Part shown: positions 26,720-41,889 of the stretch, piece by piece
How positions within the stretch are numbered: position 1 is the stretch's first letter
Layout: each line of letters opens with the position of its first letter
Origin: Calliopsis andreniformis
Lineage: Eukaryota > Arthropoda > Insecta > Hymenoptera > Andrenidae
Length of the DNA: 64,000 nt
Assembly (NCBI RefSeq): GCF_051401765.1
Contig: NW_027480432.1
Location: 10,744,501-10,808,500 of the forward strand
Direction: 5' to 3'
The notes under the pieces: generated by a model
Seen by the model: the letters and a program-made list of their open reading frames with translations, nothing else
What the model was told of the DNA's origin: nothing
Database searches by the model: none
Translations under genes and position numbers: made by a program

Positions 26720-27769
26720 TCCAAATCCATATCAATAATTAAAGGGTATGTTTGTTTTTGGTGAAGTTGCGTATATACAATATTGGTCCTCGAATAATAC
26801 TAAATTTAAAGATTTACAACCATCAAATTTTATATAAAGCTTCTAATTTAGACAATTATTGTTAAATAAATGGTAAAAAAATTATCTCTCACAGCTCGAA
26901 AATATCCTAAAAGGGTTAAATGGTAGACAATATTGCAAGTATTTGCCTTTATTATTTTTTATATACATATAATTTGATGACATAAATAACATAATCTATT
27001 TCTAAGTCTCATAAGGTCAATTCAACTTGTTGTGCTTTTAATAAAATATTATCGATTTGATTAGCATCACGAAAGAATAAAAAACAAATCCAATAGTACC
27101 GTTTGTAAGACAGTCTGCTTTTAAGAAGACTTATGACAATTTAGAGTTCCAAGTTTACGTCTTTGAATTTAAATGCTTGTAATATTTTGTAAAATTATCA
27201 ATGGATCACGTAAGTCGATATAGTGAGTTCTTCTTATAAACATGATTTGCGCTATGCGTTGTAATCTTGCCGCAATCCCCTCCACCTCGTGTCGTTTCTC
27301 ATTTTCATTCCCTCTCACTCGTTTTATTTAACATCCATAAAATGAGAATGAGTCACTATATACAAATCTCTTAAAGAGTATTTGTTTTATTATACTAACC
27401 TATTGTTATTTGACCAATTTCGCAAATATAATGTACATATTTTGTTAATATTTCTCTGTGAATATATTATAACTAATATAGAAACACAGAAATGAAATAT
27501 AATATTTTATTAGCAGGAATGGTATGAAACCTGCTGTCCACTGATGCCACGAGGTAGAGGGTGAACTTTTCGAATGATGTAGGGATTCTTAGTAATCACT
27601 GAAAAGTATCCTTTCTAATGTACAGAAAATTATTAATAATTATAAATACAACAGTACACTGCATTGTAAGGCAGGACGTGGAAGGAGAACAAATTTTAAC
27701 TGAAACTGATGAACTGTACGCAGAAACTGTACGCAGAGCATAGCGTAACAATACCTATCATGATAGGAT
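26720..27769. other. non-coding A+T-rich DNA
   Basis: No exon recognised. Confidence 0.5.
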
Positions 27770-28440
27770 AGCAAAAACAAAGTCGTATATTTTTAAAATC
27801 AATAGAATTAAGCGGATCAAATTTGCAAGAAAACATATAAATTGTGACCAAAATGTTTGGAATAACGTAATATTTTTCGATAAGGTTAAAATTAATTTTT
27901 AAAAATAGTTGTATAACGGAAACTAAATACGAAATTTAAAAAATATAATACGGTTCCAACAGTAAAATACAGTGGGGGTTCGACAATGTTATGAGAATGT
28001 ATGACAGCAATCGGAGTGAGAAATATCAAATTTATTGAAACTACCATGGACAAAATAAAGTATTTAGATATTTTGAAAAAAAAAAAAATTTAATCTTCAG
28101 TTGAAAAATTACAAATTCCATCCACGTATTACGTTTAACAGGACGACGATCCTGAACATTCAATGTACGTTGTTAAGGAATGGTTACTGTATAATACATA
28201 AAAATTATTAAATACTCTACCATAGTCACCAGATATTAATTCAATCGAGCACTTGTGGCAGGAATTAAAGTCAATGTTAAGTAATTGTACAATTACTGAT
28301 AAAGAAGATGTGAAACGGAAAATTACTAAAATATGGAAAAATATTCCGTGTTTGACGATTTAAAAATTAATCGAATCTATGCCGAGACGCTTAAAAGCAG
28401 TTAAAGATGTATATGAATTTGCGACAAAATATTAGAATGA
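27770..28440 (+). pseudogene. Tc1-like (DDE) transposase relic
   Basis: Conceptual translation gives Tc1-family signatures in order: RIKFARKHINCDQNVWNNVI followed by FFDKVK (the first catalytic Asp region), QDDDPEHSMYVVKEW near 28138 (second Asp), and SPDINSIEHLWQELK near 28226 (catalytic Glu), about 32 codons apart in one frame. Stops (TAA, TAG) interrupt it, a poly(A) run near 28077 breaks the frame, and the N-terminal DNA-binding part is not recognisable. It is a dead element. Confidence 0.85.
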
Positions 28441-29733
28441 ATTTTACCAGTTTCTATGTAATTTTATTCTGTGTACGCTCAATTGTGTGACAGTTAAATA
28501 AGTGAATTTTTTCTTTTCTTATTAAATGCAGATAAATAGTACATTTTATTTAAAATTTTGTTCACGAATCATCTGTTAAAATATACGAATAATATATGTA
28601 TTATGTTTTTATTTTTAAATATGTCTGTTTATATTCATTTTCCCTTCATTTTCCATTACCAGCGTAGATGTACGTTCAATTTTTAGTAACTGTACTTAAC
28701 TTAAAAATTCCCATGGAAATCTTAACAAAAGGTGCATAAATAAACACTGTCAATTTAGACATATTTTCTGTAGTATTCTCTAGAATAACGTTCTTTTATT
28801 TGGTTGAACCATTTTGCATAGTGTATAATACCATCTAGTAGATACAAAAAATAAATGTACATTTGGTAAATCCATACAGTTTCAATATGTTATAGTTCAT
28901 GAAACTGATCCAATAGACATCTTTTTAATTATTCTACCATAGGCTTACAAATATTTTATTCTGTAGTGGATCCTACATCCTAAGTTATAATATATTTAAA
29001 GATATGTTTGCATCTGTCATAATTGCAGTAAAGCTCACACAACTATGTACGTATTCTTAAAACTATATGTATATGTCCTCACATTAAGTCGGACTTTTAA
29101 ACTTACTCAAAAGTCAGTGATAATAATAAATAAAATCATATAAAAATTAAAGTTTTTCAAAAAGCCACTTTATATGGTAGATTTAATACTAATTAATATA
29201 AATCACATGTATGAAAGGAGTTTAATAATTAATCTTTAATATCATCCTTAACAAATAGTAACAACTACAGATTTCTTTTAAATTAATTAAATTTAAAACT
29301 GTCTCTTACTTGACGTATTTAATTGCAGTACAAACATGATTAACAAATTGAAATGCAGTCTGAGATTGATAAATAATATCTTCAGTATTTATCATGCAGC
29401 TCATTTGTAAAGAAAAATATGAAACTAATTTATAAAAGTTATAGTTTCTGTACATTATATATCAATATAGATTAAAATACGTAATATCTATCATTAATTT
29501 ATAACACATAGAGTTTCCTATAGGAAAACTGCATATAATGAAATTGGCAATTTTTTCTTTCTATCATAGGTTAAGTTAATTAAAAACTATTATAAAAGAA
29601 TGTAAAGTTATTACAGTAAACAATTTCTAAATTTGTTTATAATTACAATAACAATGCTAACTAAGAACTTTGATTACTTTTACATTCAATCGATTGCATA
29701 ATACTTATTCGAACTATACGGCCAAGGGTTTCA
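28441..29733. other. non-coding A+T-rich DNA downstream of kelch
   Basis: It may contain an extended kelch 3' UTR. No other feature is seen. Confidence 0.45.
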
Positions 29734-29739
29734 TTTATT
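29734..29739 (-). terminator. candidate kelch poly(A) signal
   Basis: An AATAAA hexamer on the minus strand lies about 400 bases past the ORF2 stop. It is the first canonical hexamer I found there. In A+T-rich DNA this is weak evidence. Confidence 0.3.
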
Positions 29740-30141
29740 AAATTTGTAAATATAACTAGCTAAGGATATTAAAGCACATATGAAGCAATCTTATTGTCAA
29801 TACATGCGCGAGCTCGCTTCAAATATTTATAACATTTTTCAAATAGAGATCTTAATGTAAATTATACAACTCAACAACTATTGGTATGGTTATAAAATAT
29901 TATTCAATTACGTTTCAATAAAGTGAATATCTCTATTAAAAAAGAACAATCTAACGCGTTATTCTATCAAATATCACACATTACAATTTCTTCTAATGAA
30001 ATGTAAAAGAACACATATTGATTTTTGTGGTATTTCAATATTCCTGATTCGAAAATATCATTGGTATCGTAATAAGTAAATCGATATTTCATGATTTTAA
30101 GAAAACCTTCACATTTCAATACTATAGATGAACTTTCAAGT

Positions 30142-31743
30142 TCAAGCATCATCGCTATCACTCTCATGCTGATCTTGAGGCTCTTCTTCCATTGGAGGAA
30201 CGGTGTCCATGTTTCTGTCAAAATGGTGCGGATTCCATGGTGGAAGCCATTTATTTATAAACCACCAATGTACAGATAATCTTCCATGATTACATTCTGC
30301 TCTTTCACATCTACCAAGGAATTGAGAGATACCAGTAATATTTCCACTGTGATTTCTAATGCAAGAATCGTCACATGTATGTTGACGTTCCGCTGAACGA
30401 TTAGTAGAACAAAGGGAAGCGTGCGAAGTAGAAGGATTACTTGGAGAAAACATTGGCCTGGAATTCGAGGATGTATTGGATTCATTAATTGTCGACGCCG
30501 AAACATTTGAGGTTGAAGGGCCAGGATCTATACTATTAGGTAAATTTCCTCCGGCTGCTACGTTGCCAAGAGCCGAAGGACAAGGTCTACCAACATGAAT
30601 CGTAGCGTAAAGTGGATTATTAACTGATGGACCAGCTCTATTAATCCAATCGAGATATCTACCAATTTGAGTGGCCGAATTACAGTTAGAGAGAATTTTA
30701 CACCTGCAAGAAGAATTATTCGGACTTCTACAGTGACATTCCATTCTCAACGATTCTGTATGCCGACAAGATGTAATGGGCAGTTTCACGTATGAATATT
30801 CACCACGACAGAATGGACACTTGCAGTTCCTTTGCAGTTGATATATGTAGTGCCTAGAATTACTTGCAAGTCCATCTTGATAACGTAATCTGTTATGAAT
30901 ATTGTGACAATAATGACAATACTTTGTATCTAAATGTCTACAAAACCAGCACATGCAATTGTAACCAAGTGGATAAATTGTACGTCCAGTTGATGCATAC
31001 GCAATATTTTCGGTAGAAAAACAATTGCGACCCAATCTACCTAAGCGAGTTTGACAAAACTGGCTAGATAATCGTGACGAATCTAAATAAATTTGTCTAG
31101 GTTGATCGTAGTGGCTTAAATTTCTAGATTCCGCGTCATTTAAGAAATTCGGTATAGCAATATGATTCAGAATATGATATCTATAACAACGAGAATACGT
31201 TCTACCACTGCAAGAATATCGGTCATCTATTCTTTCGTATGTGTGATCCGCGTTATTCTGGTTATTTTGCACTTCGTTACGACCAACTTCGACGTTGTTT
31301 TCAACATTTTCATCGTCATCATCATCTAGTCTTTCGTAAATATTTTCCTCTGGTTCGTGTAGTTGTCGGTTATTATTATAATGATGCACTAAATCCACTG
31401 GATTTTGATAATTCGGATTAAGGTTTGGGTATAATTGAACCGAACCACTGGGTCGGTTTTGGAAATTGCGCGGACCACGGCCTGCATCCTGATGGTTGTC
31501 GTCTCTTTCTTGACTATTTCTGTTCTGATTCATAACTACAGCAGCCAACTCTCCGTTTTCGTACCTTTGACACACGCAATGTGGGCCTTGACAGTTATGG
31601 CCAGCGCCGCGATAATGCTGAAGTACATTTTGGTCTGCATTCTGAACTTGCACACCGCTGGGCCCGGCTTCCCGTAAATGATCCGACGTTTCAACACTCG
31701 GATCTGTGTTCTGCTCTGTCGTATGCCCAGCGGATTGCAACCC
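30142..31743 (-). CDS. kelch: kelch ORF2: 533-codon in-frame readthrough extension downstream of the ORF1 TGA
   Basis: The frame continues uninterrupted from the codon after the ORF1 TGA (31746-31744) to a TGA at 30144-30142. The first in-frame ATG is about 71 codons in, so independent initiation at the junction is unlikely, and a chance open frame this long in A+T-rich DNA is implausible. Drosophila kelch has the same ORF1-UGA-ORF2 structure and makes a long protein by tissue-regulated readthrough; applying that here is inference. By extension residue I see: an N-terminal Asn/Gln-rich part; Cys cluster CQGPHCVC near 51-58; YERLDD near 136 and YERIDD near 169; a Cys/His-rich core about 262-354 with CMCWFC, YCHYCH, CKCPFC and CHC patterns; NPLY near 376, a possible PTB-type motif; a Ser/Asn/Thr-rich stretch about 400-445; CDDSC and CERAEC near 457 and 479; a Trp/Pro-rich patch near 492-503; and an acidic end (EEEPQDQHESDSDD). 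I recognise no named domain. The predicted readthrough product is 621 + 1 + 533 = 1155 residues. Confidence 0.88.
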   Translation of the reverse strand, partial: GLQSAGHTTEQNTDPSVETSDHLREAGPSGVQVQNADQNVLQHYRGAGHNCQGPHCVCQRYENGELAAVVMNQNRNSQERDDNHQDAGRGPRNFQNRPSGSVQLYPNLNPNYQNPVDLVHHYNNNRQLHEPEENIYERLDDDDDENVENNVEVGRNEVQNNQNNADHTYERIDDRYSCSGRTYSRCYRYHILNHIAIPNFLNDAESRNLSHYDQPRQIYLDSSRLSSQFCQTRLGRLGRNCFSTENIAYASTGRTIYPLGYNCMCWFCRHLDTKYCHYCHNIHNRLRYQDGLASNSRHYIYQLQRNCKCPFCRGEYSYVKLPITSCRHTESLRMECHCRSPNNSSCRCKILSNCNSATQIGRYLDWINRAGPSVNNPLYATIHVGRPCPSALGNVAAGGNLPNSIDPGPSTSNVSASTINESNTSSNSRPMFSPSNPSTSHASLCSTNRSAERQHTCDDSCIRNHSGNITGISQFLGRCERAECNHGRLSVHWWFINKWLPPWNPHHFDRNMDTVPPMEEEPQDQHESDSDDA

Positions 31744-31746
31744 TCA
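31744..31746 (-). promoter_or_regulatory. kelch: TGA readthrough (recoding) stop codon of kelch
   Basis: The codon context is ACA TCG ATG TGA GGG TTG CAA. The 12 bases after the stop (31743-31732) form an imperfect palindrome that could pair with itself using one G-U pair. UGA is the stop type most often read through and the one used in Drosophila kelch. Readthrough itself is inferred from the 533-codon open frame. Confidence 0.8.
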
Positions 31747-31934
31747 CATCGATGTTGTAGAAGGTATTGGTTTGTCGATTATTGCAACTCCTGCATAGCT
31801 ACGGCCGATTCCCATACAAGTTGGAAGAGTTGTCCACGTATCAGTTCTTGGAGAATATACTTCTACAGATGCTAAACTCGATGAACCGTCATCACCTCCC
31901 ACAACGTACAAAAGGCCGTTTAGAGCGACAACAC
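31744..31934 (-). CDS. kelch: kelch coding exon 9, ORF1 part (last Kelch blade and TGA)
   Basis: The acceptor is TTTATAG|GTGTT after a T-rich tract. Residues 559-621 carry [20 protein letters not shown] and [13 protein letters not shown], which close the propeller. The exon runs on unspliced through the TGA into ORF2. Confidence 0.93.
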
Positions 31935-34810
31935 CTATAAAAAAAGACAATATTCCGTTTTCGATTTTAATAAATGCAATACACTATACATCATCATTAC
32001 TGTTTCTGATTATTATTAACAGCACTTTTCATTTAGTTTTCTTCAAACTCAGAAATAAAATTAATTACCAGCATTTCTGCGACAAAGAGCCATATCACTA
32101 ACTGGAGTCCACTGATTAGTATCTGGATTGAAAGCTTCTACACTTTTTCTAACCAAAGGACCATCGTGACCTCCTACGGCGTAGAGAATTCCTTCTAAAA
32201 CACCAACACCGGCGCCACTACGACGTGCAGACATATCAGGTACTGGTTTCCACTGATCTTTTTCGGGATTGTAACATTCAACAGTAGATAAGCACTGCCG
32301 AGATGCTCCATCGTAACCACCAACCTGCAGTAATGTAATTTTATATTAAAAATTAGAAATTAACTTTTTAAAATGTTTTACAACTAAACTTACAGCATAT
32401 AGTAATCCTTTAACGACGCCTACGCCAACACTACTTCTTCGAGTTGACATAGGTGCGATTAATCTCCATTCATGAGTTCTTGGGTCATACACTTCAGCGG
32501 AATTTAAGCCAGTTGAACCATCAAATCCACCCACCTATTTTTAAAAAAAAAAATTTATGTCAGTACACGTATCGCGAGCTCAACGAAGTTAGCAGCCTAC
32601 TTTTTTCATTACTTGTTTAGGCAACGAGATTAAACACGTCACACCGTTTGCTTTATTCTCTAAGTAGGCTGTTATTTTATTTATAAGAAGCAGTTAGTAT
32701 GCCAAGATTGGTTATGTTTAGTCGAACACGGAATGATCGCAAATAATTAATTTCAATTTAAAGATAAAACAAAAACACGAAAGTAGTGTGCACATATATT
32801 TTATGAAAATAAGCGTCAGTGATATAATTATGGTGAAATAAGAGAAACTCTATAATAGTATAAATATTTAAGTGTATGGAATAAGAAATATGTACAGCAT
32901 AAATGCAGTTTCCAAGGACAGCTACACCAAGTGTTGATCGTCTTGCTTCCATTTCTGGGCAAGGAGACCACTGATCTGTAGCTGCATCATAAATATCAAC
33001 TGTTCGCACTCTAAGAGACCCATTAAATCCACCAACAGCATACACACGACCACCAAGGACAGATAAACCTGTATATTATAAATCATTTCATGGAAATGCT
33101 TAGAAAGATTAAATTACTTAAATAAATTTCAAACGTATAAGTATTTTTACCAGCTCGACAACGACGCGTGGGTAATTCAGATACTTGATACCATCGTTCT
33201 TCCTTAAAATCATAACATTCTACGCTCCTAATTGCTTTTGGTGCTTGTCCACCAACCACTAATAACACTTTAGGTAATCCTCTGGGTTGTCTCGGTTTTG
33301 TGCGAGGTGTTTTGAATAACGACTTTTGTTCTCCTTTAAGTAAATGATACTTCAAAGCTTCAATCAAGAAATCCTTACCTGAATACATGAAAAGAAATAT
33401 AATTTAAAATTGGTCTATATTAAATTACAGTAAGTGTGATTTACAAAACACATATTTCGTTATTTACATTGTAAATTTGCTTTAAGAAGAGGTTCTTCTT
33501 CCACACGTTGTACTAAATACTCTTGTGATAATAAAGGTAAGCGTACATGTTCCATTAATTGAGCTAAATGAGTTTGTCTTTTATCCAAATCATGATGTAC
33601 CCAAGATATCACACATTCAAAAACTTTTTCTTCTGAAGGTACCATTAAACGATCACTACAAATTAATTTAGCAACTTGCTGTGGTGCCAATGTTAAAAAT
33701 TCTTCACCATCTACTACTTCTCTGTAAGTAAATAATTTGTTGTTAGGACAAAAAATGCTTTAATATGTAAAAATACAAATACCACGAAAGAAACTAATAG
33801 TTATCTTACGAAAAATGTTGTTCAATGTAGCTATCTGCATGTGATAATAATTCTAAACAACCATGAAGATCAGCAAATGCTCGAATTCCCAAACAATTCG
33901 ATGGATGCAATTGAGCTTGTAAGAAGTCACAACAAGCATCACGTACATCAGTCAATTGTAAAAGATTTGCAGCTGGTAATAACACTTGTACATTATCTTC
34001 AGTTACATGTACCTCCGCAGAATATACATAGTCTACTAATAACTCAAGTGCAGAATAATCTACTCCTTGAAGTGTTATTCTCTCTTGATCTCGTTCCTCG
34101 AAACTTGTGAACATAGCATAGAAATAAGGACTACAGGCAGCAAGGACCATTTTATGTGCAGGTACTTCCATACCACCGTCTGCCACCAAAATCACGTCAC
34201 ATAATAAATTTTTCCTAGTAAACAATTTTTCATTTTACACCTCAATTTTAATAGAGAAACAAAAGTAAAATAATAATATGGGTAACTCCGAAACAGACTC
34301 TGAAATCATTTTTTCTGTTCAGGATACAAGTAACCTTATAGTTAAATAAGTTCTTATTCTAAAATATAACAAACTTATCATAAAAAAACATATTTCACAT
34401 CACATGACATACTTTCGCATCTCATTGATGACATCAAAAGCTCGATTTGTATGATGATGATTCCTATACGGTGGCTTATCTTTTCCACTTTCACGAGGTA
34501 TGTGTTTTTGCGAACTCTCGTCCAAAGAATTCTGACTAGCATATCGAAGTAACAGACAACTAGAAAGAAGAACAAATTTTGTTCGTGTAATAAGTAATGT
34601 TATAAACAAAATATATATTATCATATGAAAATATTTAATATATTACTGTGTACATTGTACTGTTAAAGCACATAAACTACGCAACGAACAAAGAAGAATT
34701 AAACAATTTGAAATAAGTTTGACAGAACTCGAATCTCACCTTCCCTTGTTTTCGGAGTTGTCTGTATTATTGGAAGTATTTTGCACCTGACCTTGTCCCG
34801 CCGACTCCAT
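31744..34810 (-). CDS. kelch: kelch ORF1: BTB-BACK-Kelch adaptor (ring canal kelch / KLHL type), 9 exons, 621 aa to first stop
   Basis: Proteins of this family dimerise through BTB, bind Cullin-3 through BTB/BACK and present substrates on a six-bladed Kelch propeller; in Drosophila Kelch organises actin in ovarian ring canals. Exons (minus strand): 34810-34740, 34559-34413, 34214-33810, 33721-33468, 33378-33151, 33068-32896, 32534-32394, 32324-32069, 31934-31744. Each junction is GT-AG and phases agree, giving 1866 nt including the stop. BTB is about residues 70-190 ([29 protein letters not shown]), BACK about 195-300 ([22 protein letters not shown]), and six blades follow, each marked by a GG motif: VVGGQAP, AVGGFNG, VGGFDGS, VGGYDGA, AVGGHDG, VVGGDDG. 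The C terminus ([13 protein letters not shown]) closely resembles the end of Drosophila Kelch ORF1, which favours kelch over the relative diablo/KLHL20. The start ATG at 34810 is the first in the frame of exon 1; the N terminus is the least certain part. The stop is TGA followed by G and is continued in frame by ORF2. Confidence 0.93.
32069..32324 (-). CDS. kelch: kelch coding exon 8 (two Kelch blades)
   Basis: The acceptor is CTGCAG|GTTGG and the donor GTAATT. Residues 474-558 carry [31 protein letters not shown] and [16 protein letters not shown]. Confidence 0.94.
32394..32534 (-). CDS. kelch: kelch coding exon 7 (Kelch blade)
   Basis: The acceptor is AAATAG|GTGGG and the donor GTAAGT; it is a phase 0-0, 47-codon exon encoding residues 427-473 ([17 protein letters not shown] to GLLYA). 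A blade-sized symmetric exon could be skipped without a frameshift. Confidence 0.94.
32896..33068 (-). CDS. kelch: kelch coding exon 6 (Kelch blade)
   Basis: The acceptor is ATACAG|GTTTA. The donor GTACAT is non-optimal but sits exactly where the IYA|VGG blade junction requires it. Residues 369-426 carry [17 protein letters not shown] and [12 protein letters not shown]. Confidence 0.92.
33151..33378 (-). CDS. kelch: kelch coding exon 5 (end of BACK, first Kelch blade)
   Basis: The acceptor is TATTCAG|GTAAG and the donor GTAAAA. Residues 293-368 carry [13 protein letters not shown] and then blade one, [21 protein letters not shown], with the family WYQ and RRCRAG motifs. Confidence 0.95.
33468..33721 (-). 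CDS. kelch: kelch coding exon 4 (BACK domain)
   Basis: The acceptor is TTACAG|AGAAG and the donor GTAAAT. Residues 208-292 hold the BACK domain with [25 protein letters not shown] and [14 protein letters not shown]. Confidence 0.95.
33810..34214 (-). CDS. kelch: kelch coding exon 3 (BTB domain and start of BACK)
   Basis: The acceptor is TTTACTAG|GAAAA and the donor GTAAGA. Residues 73-207 hold the whole BTB/POZ fold, including [11 protein letters not shown], the [13 protein letters not shown] core and [15 protein letters not shown], then the first BACK helices ([19 protein letters not shown]). Confidence 0.95.
34413..34559 (-). CDS. kelch: kelch coding exon 2
   Basis: The acceptor is TTTCTAG|TTG and the donor GTATGT. 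It encodes residues 24-72, ending [12 protein letters not shown], the helix that precedes the BTB core in KLHL proteins. That match fixes the frame among three open ones. Confidence 0.85.
34740..34810 (-). CDS. kelch: kelch coding exon 1
   Basis: Residues 1-23 plus two bases of codon 24. The start is ATG at 34810-34808 ([10 protein letters not shown]), and the exon ends before a strong donor (AAG|GTGAG). It is Asn/Gln/Ser-rich and outside any domain. The 5' UTR continues upstream; no TATA box is obvious. Confidence 0.75.
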
Positions 34811-35310
34811 TTCAGCTGTTCAAGAAAGCCTTCCACAAAGCCGGTATAACACGTTTTAATACAGTTTTATAATATTGATACAAAATGAATCCGAACTTAT
34901 TCGCTTATACAGACATCATTTCACTATCGACATCAGCTGAGCGAAAGAAACGAAAACGACGCTACCGACTTTACGCTGTCTATTTTGATGCGTCGTTATG
35001 TTGCAGTGAGATAGACCCTGTCTGATATTTTCTGCATAAAATGCGAAGTCAAAGTTCCGTATCTACAAACTGCATAAACGTTAACAATAATATTGTAACG
35101 ACGTACACAAGTCCTACATCAAGTTTCTCTCTCATTAAATCGCCAAACGTTATTTACTGCTTCTATCTGCCTTCCTGAAAGAAAACACACGCCGCTGTCG
35201 ACATCTACAGGTTATTTTAGGTACTGTATTGTCTCTTTAAATTTGTAATATTTGTGATTTTGTGTATAAGGCTTATCATCAATAATTACTTTTAAGTGCA
35301 GCAGTTAGCC
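34811..35310. promoter_or_regulatory. kelch upstream region, possibly a shared divergent promoter
   Basis: This 500-base gap separates the kelch start codon from a candidate plus-strand exon. It is less A+T-rich than its surroundings around 34930-35210 and contains several CpGs. No TATA box or clear initiator is visible, so promoter function is inferred from position. Confidence 0.4.
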
Positions 35311-40775: not shown

Positions 40776-41201
40776 TCACGTAACAACGTGGATCTGTTCC
40801 ATTCTCCGACACCCCTTGAACACATCGTTGCAACCTGTCCCATTCGTGTTAGTGATTATTTGCATCTCTGCATTCGCTAAAACATTCTTCCCCGCTAGAA
40901 TTTTATATTCTCGTCTTACATCCGTCTTCTCCTTATCATCAAGCTTCTTATTTCCTGCGATGCTTATGAGCAACTCGAATATCGCCTCGTATCTGGTGCC
41001 TAAGATCGCTTGACGTAGATTGGGATCCATAATAGTATTCATGATTAACTCCACTAATTCTGACGGTGTAAACACCGCGCGTATTTGCTTCAAAGACGTC
41101 AGCTTTGTGCGAGCAGATCGTGCGTAAGACATAGCTAATTCATTAATACATATGCTAGAGAGCTCGAAGTGTCTGATGGTGCAGTTTTTTCTCAGATACA
41201 A
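40776..41201 (-). CDS. unidentified 141-codon frame, possibly retroelement gag or endogenous viral remnant
   Basis: The minus frame has good coding character (MSYARSARTKLTSLKQIRAV, FTPSELVELIMNTIMDPNL, ELLISIAGNKKLDDKEKT). Coding-like sequence continues upstream to about 41440 and downstream to about 40640 only across stops and frameshifts, so it is a decayed gene. It lies 5' of the integrase relic on the same strand, where gag would be, but I do not recognise a gag motif. An endogenous nucleoprotein of a negative-strand RNA virus is an alternative. Identity is uncertain. Confidence 0.4.
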   Translation of the reverse strand: MYLRKNCTIRHFELSSICINELAMSYARSARTKLTSLKQIRAVFTPSELVELIMNTIMDPNLRQAILGTRYEAIFELLISIAGNKKLDDKEKTDVRREYKILAGKNVLANAEMQIITNTNGTGCNDVFKGCRRMEQIHVVT

Positions 41202-41889
41202 AAACTATGTACGTCCTCGCAGACTTTTTCCAGGTGCAAGGGTGAACTTCCCACGTGGCATATGGGTTGCGAGTTTCAATCGTTGATGTGGCACATGCTT
41301 AGCTTAGTTCCTCGACCTTATTATACTGTATCATATTCGTGCATCATGGCTAATCCCCGAATTAATGAATTCTGGACATTATTCCTGGATGTAATTTTGT
41401 TCCTGAATTTTCCAATAGTAGCTTGACACACGGTATCTGCTATTTCCCATACTAAAAACCTAGACACACATGGCCGACAATTTCATTGGTCTAAAGGTCG
41501 ATTACAGGCTTAATAAATTTTATATATCGATTACTTTCTTGATCATTAAATAGAAAAAGGACTGTTCAGTCTGTAAGCCTTTAGTTAGACTCATAAAATT
41601 ATCAGTCGTGTGCGTCCAAGCATATGTTTGTCTATACATATATATACAGTAATAAATCACGTAAAATAAAAATAAAAAATGGAACATTTATATCTAACAC
41701 GTAGGAACGTGGCATCACTTGCTCTCAAAGTTAAGTGATATAGTGTTTAAGTCTCATAGTTTCGCACGTCAGGATTCCACGTCTAATGCTAGTAATTTGA
41801 AAGAAATCACCACGATTTTCAAGATCTTTTTATTCCAAGGTTCCAGGGTAAATGTTAGGATTCATGTATCTTACTAGTTATTAGCAACG

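Follow-up and report, generated by a model that had tools for sequence, protein, structure and literature searches.

A predicted RNA hairpin at the kelch UGA and probable stop-codon readthrough into a conserved extension in Calliopsis andreniformis

The kelch gene of Calliopsis andreniformis (Hymenoptera: Andrenidae) lies within the window analysed here—64,000 nucleotides of contig NW_027480432.1 in RefSeq assembly GCF_051401765.1, positions 10,744,501 to 10,808,500 of the forward strand—and consists of an intact first open reading frame (ORF1), a UGA and a second long frame in phase with the first (ORF2). We consider this arrangement very probably best explained by hairpin-stimulated readthrough of the UGA, making a second, long protein. 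Readthrough of kelch is already known in flies, and an initial annotation of this DNA had predicted it here; that annotation was right on the anatomy of the gene and probably right on the mechanism, and to it we add a predicted RNA hairpin at the UGA and conservation of the ORF2 protein from sawflies to bees.

The gene could be rebuilt from the sequence alone as nine exons on the minus strand, with all eight introns (69–361 nt, 71–83% AT) bounded by GT..AG. Its parts, in window coordinates, are:

34740..34810, minus strand: kelch exon 1, with the ATG at 34810 (GT..AG boundaries, in-frame splice)
34413..34559, minus strand: kelch exon 2 (gene model)
33810..34214, minus strand: kelch exon 3, most of the BTB domain (gene model and Pfam)
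33468..33721, minus strand: kelch exon 4, BACK region (gene model and Pfam)
33151..33378, minus strand: kelch exon 5 (gene model)
32896..33068, minus strand: kelch exon 6, kelch repeats (gene model)
32394..32534, minus strand: kelch exon 7, kelch repeats (gene model)
32069..32324, minus strand: kelch exon 8, kelch repeats (gene model)
31747..31934, minus strand: kelch exon 9, ORF1 portion, with the last kelch repeat and the C-terminal ...SM (gene model)
31744..31746, minus strand: TGA, the proposed readthrough stop codon, in the context ATG TGA GGG (sequence)
30145..31743, minus strand: ORF2, 533 sense codons in frame with ORF1 and in the same exon (relatives in Hymenoptera)
30142..30144, minus strand: TGA closing the extended frame (sequence)

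Ahead of the first TGA, the rebuilt ORF1 encodes exactly 621 amino acids, as the initial annotation had described, and ends ATG TGA GGG; the base 3′ of the UGA is G. Exon 9 runs without an intron from the end of ORF1 through the TGA and the whole of ORF2. Pfam searches placed BTB (PF00651), BACK (PF07707) and six stretches of kelch (PF01344) in ORF1, which has the make-up of a kelch or KLHL2/KLHL3-type Cul3 adaptor and shares 86% identity over 618 residues with the kelch part of a protein from Aphidius gifuensis (P0053). In the PDB, the best matches to ORF1 after the SAKe proteins, which we take to be designed proteins, were the kelch domains of KLHL2 (2xn4) and KLHL3 (4ch9); we know of no ORF2-like tail in either of these.

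Beyond the TGA, the stop-to-stop frame (30142..31743, minus strand) comprises 533 sense codons, the first in-frame ATG falling at codon 71 after 70 codons without one, in agreement with the in-frame extension and the ATG-free beginning of about 71 codons reported by the initial annotation. From the stop-triplet frequencies of the window, 533 open codons have a probability of 1.0e-16 to 2.1e-16, depending on the strand used, and from those of ORF2 itself one of 1.5e-11; 16 to 56 stops fall in each of the remaining five frames of this stretch. ORF2 is open for longer than chance would have it and provides the long in-phase frame by which readthrough genes are recognised. Codon scores likewise single out this frame, both across ORF2 (0.122 vs −0.307 and −0.162 in the shifted frames) and in the part before the first ATG (0.418 vs −0.296 and 0.152). 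Synonymous codon choice in ORF2 is unlike that in ORF1 (−0.054, or −0.14 before the first ATG, vs +0.098), but still scores above the shifted frames.

A protein database search with ORF2 (E ≤ 1e-3), covering proteins of up to about 930 amino acids, returned 53 matches, one of them the window’s own protein and the other 52 at 37–86% identity. An organism name was attached to 24 of the 52 and to none of the remaining 28; all 24 named relatives belong to genera that we take to be Hymenoptera, with four groups represented:

Bees: Colletes, Anthophora, Megalopta, Osmia, Melipona, Ceratina, Nomia, Habropoda
Ants: Ooceraea, Temnothorax, Atta, Linepithema, Dinoponera, Harpegnathos
Wasps: Odynerus, Belonocnema, Venturia, Microplitis, Microctonus, Diachasmimorpha, Aphidius
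Sawflies: Cephus, Athalia, Neodiprion

Among these named relatives, 23 are annotated as ‘uncharacterized’ or ‘hypothetical’, and the Microplitis protein (P0048) bears a kinase name. ORF2 was aligned using MAFFT with 44 of the 53 proteins, giving 45 rows; P0001 (the window’s own), P0010, P0019, P0022, P0032, P0046, P0047, P0048 and P0053 were left out, most of them because they are short, partial or fused. Thirty-six columns are invariant, with ENIYE, YER and CDDSCIR among them. At the protein level, ORF2 is conserved in frame within Hymenoptera, across named sawflies, wasps, ants and bees.

Conservation extends into the part of ORF2 that precedes its first ATG: weighted mean identity is 74% over codons 45–70 and 58% over codons 71–533. 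Translation should thus enter upstream of codons 45–70, because this block is well conserved and no ATG comes before it. Conservation of this protein-coding kind between stop and first ATG, as judged from the aligned proteins, is what a readthrough gene should display. Closer to the stop, column identities in the MAFFT alignment (27% for residues 3–7, 34% for 8–26 and 58% for 27–32) are unreliable, because most rows begin later and gaps scatter; at face value, they do not mark the left arm of the hairpin described below as conserved.

The public annotations imply a different reading, in which ORF2 is a separate protein made from its own transcript, by internal initiation or by reinitiation. 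Labels such as ‘hypothetical protein’ or ‘uncharacterized protein LOC...’, mostly on records that open with Met, are what such a protein would carry, and an M aligned with codon 2 in sawfly rows is perhaps a real ATG; eight of the 53 rows start at the codon aligned with ORF2 codon 2. Yet in Calliopsis the first ATG is codon 71, even though codons 45–70 are better conserved than the rest, and ORF2 sits in the last kelch exon with no intervening intron. Start codons differ among the public records and are often non-homologous, as artefacts of start-picking would be. A start at a non-ATG codon ahead of the conserved block is possible, but a separate ORF2 protein as a whole seems to us exceedingly unlikely.

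The mRNA that begins at the UGA is predicted to fold into a stable hairpin, with these elements:

31643..31746, minus strand: predicted RNA hairpin starting at the UGA, minimum free energy −44.8 kcal/mol (folding)
31725..31733, minus strand: main stem, left arm CCGCUGGGC, in the codons for SAGH (folding)
31655..31663, minus strand: main stem, right arm GCCCAGCGG, in the codons for GPSG (folding)
31736..31740, minus strand: outer helix, left, UUGCA (folding)
31648..31652, minus strand: outer helix, right, UGCAA (folding)

The main stem sets in 10 nt after the UGA and spans +14 to +92. Folding of the 117 nt from the UGA gave −44.8 kcal/mol (z −4.34), a value equalled by none of 200 shuffles, and when ORF1, UGA and ORF2 were scanned in 336 windows of 110 nt, the one with the most stable fold began 3 nt upstream of the UGA. 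In a scan of 258 windows of 105 nt, running from ORF1 through 0.5 kb past the final stop with 60 dinucleotide shuffles each, the UGA window had the lowest z of all (−5.78, against a mean of −0.09 and sd of 1.10), and an equal-length stretch after the final stop scored +0.19. When the 35 codons after the UGA were recoded synonymously, none of 5000 versions equalled the stability of the real sequence (mean −21.4, sd 3.6). The recodings were on average poorer in G+C (49 vs 58 of 105 in the real sequence), but none of the 52 with a G+C count no more than 2 below that of the real sequence matched it, and neither did any of 2000 versions in which the existing codons were permuted between identical residues. 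Because shuffles, recodings and permutations all fold worse, the mRNA is predicted to be structured beyond what its composition and protein code would bring about, and so to carry in this one species a stable 3′ structure of the kind that stimulates readthrough.

Pair probabilities for the main stem (CCGCUGGGC with GCCCAGCGG) were 0.95–1.0 in four contexts of up to 600 nt, and those for the outer helix (UUGCA with UGCAA) 0.80–1.0, although the first pair of that helix fell to 0.27 in one of the contexts. A search for the pattern of the two 9-nt arms at a spacing of 40–70 nt found a single instance in the window and none in 100 shuffles.

The position of the stop at the foot of a duplex also suits A-to-I editing, in which UGA would become UGG (Trp) within the hairpin and the edited mRNA would be translated ordinarily into a fusion: duplex RNA is the kind of substrate that ADAR needs. 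The W that the sawfly-like protein P0046 has at the stop position would fit as well, although a genomic TGG or gene calling with code 4 gives the same residue. Pairing of the UGA itself is unsteady, however, with a probability anywhere from 0.0 to 0.76 depending on context, and with helices of 9 and 5 bp the hairpin would be a short substrate for ADAR; we regard editing as very unlikely. An in-frame UGA followed by a hairpin could equally be read as a selenocysteine codon, a reading that we consider extremely improbable: no Rfam family, and hence no SECIS family, was found at E ≤ 1 in positions 27500–35000, and Hymenoptera are not known to have kept selenoproteins.

Traces of the hairpin arms were sought in the relatives by way of the residues they encode. 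Data before CQRYENG are present in 35 of the 53 rows, and the counts at the arms refer to these 35, all holding RYENG and chosen without regard to the arm motifs. Ten reach the left arm: eight show AGH—the bee-like P0003 and P0004, the sawflies Athalia (P0038) and Neodiprion (P0044), the sawfly-like P0040 and P0043, P0039 and Microplitis (P0048)—while P0046 shows AGQ and Aphidius (P0053) aligns there with ORF1 residues instead, because it is without that stretch. The right arm is reached by 18 rows, with PSG in 17 and absent from P0053; P0052, which starts near this arm, shows PGG by eye.

In the nine rows with both arms, the residue preceding AG is S, T or A and the arms are separated by a variable 17–21 residues. 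The four-fold codons for these three residues always have C, the pairing base, in the middle; an AGY serine would not pair. Pairing implied by protein in this way is a weak test, as 13–20 other places per row pair equally well, and 71 in P0046, among rows picked by motif. In the small number of homologues that extend to the arms, SAGH and GPSG are for the most part preserved, which is agreement rather than covariation.

Two of the records that reach the arms join kelch to ORF2. P0046, of 588 amino acids, runs from the last kelch repeat into ORF2 with a W at the place of the stop, corresponding either to TGG in the genome or to TGA read with code 4. P0053, of 818 amino acids, is annotated in Aphidius gifuensis as a kelch–ORF2 fusion without the stretch that the left arm and loop of the hairpin encode; to judge from its sequence, the fusion may be either a gene-model artefact or a real splice.

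Splicing of this sort is itself a rival to readthrough, the UGA being removed by alternative splicing and ordinary translation of the spliced form making the fusion. In-frame sites for it exist in Calliopsis, where a donor (AT|GTGAGG) lies over the stop and an acceptor (CCCAG|C) at ORF2 codon 29, and together they define a candidate intron:

31658..31747, minus strand: candidate rival intron, 90 nt, in frame, 43% AT (GTGAGG donor over the TGA, CCCAG acceptor)

Its 90 nt would be an ordinary length, since the kelch introns run from 69 to 361 nt, and P0053, which joins ...TTTI to GLQEQQQ... without the AGH..PS stretch, would fit an intron at equivalent places. The candidate is nevertheless unlike its neighbours in composition (43% AT, against 71–83% in the eight kelch introns), and its acceptor tract is only 0.38 pyrimidine, although one of those eight is as low. 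Moreover, the stretch that would be removed is predicted to fold into a tight hairpin, and it stays open and can be aligned in the nine homologues that show it; in most named relatives, among the proteins of up to about 930 amino acids that were searched, ORF2 is a model of its own rather than part of a fusion. On balance we think splicing unlikely as the source of the fusion.

We would give no more than an outside chance to the idea that both processes share the element, with one hairpin holding the readthrough UGA over the GTGAGG donor together with the in-frame CCCAG acceptor in its right arm as a two-way switch. Unspliced mRNA would then yield the short kelch and some readthrough, spliced mRNA would always yield a fusion, shorter by 30 residues than the protein made by readthrough, and some lineages, such as Aphidius, may have moved from readthrough to splicing.

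Under hairpin-stimulated readthrough, which we favour, most ribosomes would halt at the UGA and release the 621-residue BTB-BACK-kelch adaptor, while in a fraction of them a near-cognate tRNA would decode the UGA. The hairpin, the main stem of which would face the entry side of the ribosome, probably raises that fraction, and the ribosomes that read through would continue to make a 1155-residue protein with the ORF2 tail. Conservation of ORF2 in frame, conservation ahead of its first ATG and a hairpin at the UGA are what programmed readthrough predicts, and the readthrough forecast in the initial annotation gains support from all three, the hairpin surpassing 5000 of 5000 recodings. Set against it are the G after the UGA, the synonymous codons of ORF2 that are unlike those of ORF1, the small number of homologues at the arms and the donor-like GTGAGG over the UGA.

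In Drosophila melanogaster, kelch (ring canal kelch) has a BTB-BACK-kelch ORF1, and like the gene described here it continues through a UGA into a long in-frame extension with a 3′ structure. Readthrough of the fly UGA extends a 76 kDa product to 160 kDa; its level is commonly about 5% but higher during metamorphosis in imaginal discs, and stimulation by a 3′ structure is cited (PMC4132726). The kel 3′ region is linked to readthrough in PMC13170385. Kelch is counted among experimentally shown cases in PMC3840789 and PMC13170385. One table, in PMC4999894, lists fly KEL as 689/316, which is hard to square with an increase from 76 to 160 kDa. The nervous system is described in PMC8417969 as having higher readthrough rates than certain other tissues.

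Unlike its fly counterpart, readthrough in Calliopsis is inferred from sequence only; ORF2 here has 533 codons, and G follows the UGA. Tissue dependence in this insect would be an extrapolation from the fly. According to PMC5100048, C is the base that most often follows the stop in the ancient cases of mosquitoes and flies (63% and 55%), readthrough of hdc is triggered by a 3′ structure, and candidates are generally classed as splice variants or dicistronic only if the stretch to the splice site or ATG scores as non-coding. The protein conservation seen before codon 71 would place kelch on the readthrough side of that rule in spirit.

A stem-loop close after the stop and within a coding extension also likens the gene to Drosophila headcase and drifter/vvl (dfr), which are other genes with other extensions. 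For dfr, which has been tested with luciferase reporters, a predicted stem-loop at +9 to +59 is reported to mediate readthrough (PMC13170385); the hairpin here is a prediction from sequence, and its main stem lies at +14 to +92.

If our reading is correct, readthrough of kelch would go back to the ancestor that sawflies and bees share, might be shared with flies too, and would here be accompanied by a 3′ hairpin. A set of ‘uncharacterized’ hymenopteran proteins would prove to be the tail of kelch, with an annotation that can be corrected, and would allow tests, by comparison across a deep phylogeny, of how readthrough is governed by an RNA hairpin and by the context of the UGA.

As to the extension itself, 27 of its 533 residues are Cys, so that the initial annotation’s label of ‘Cys-rich’ is fair; its description of ORF2 as structured found no support. 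AlphaFold2, run on the 45-row alignment, gave a mean pLDDT of 40.9 and a pTM of 0.20, a PDB search with ORF2 found no match at E ≤ 1, and a Pfam search with the window’s ORF2 matched no family; with the ORF2 alignment, eight weak families appeared, each matching one of the 45 members. The tail is long and conserved and, as far as these predictions go, probably mostly disordered. It retains Cys pairs and tyrosine motifs (NPNY, NPLY, EENIYERLD and HxYERI), located in ORF2 as NPNY at 109, YERL at 136, YERI at 169 and NPLY at 376, several residues of which are invariant or nearly so in the alignment. NPxY is a docking motif, and it is a guess to apply that to ORF2; by the same token, we would only guess that the tail may bind partners or Cul3 substrates.

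Two further frames in the window were observed. Positions 28226–28410 on the plus strand, 3′ of kelch and past ORF2, hold a degraded frame with SPDINSIEHLWQELK and following residues; it resembles the end of Tc1/mariner transposases, although a 45-residue piece of it found no match in Pfam. On the minus strand, positions 40779–41204 form a 142-codon open frame that matches no Pfam family and is possibly an exon of a neighbouring gene.
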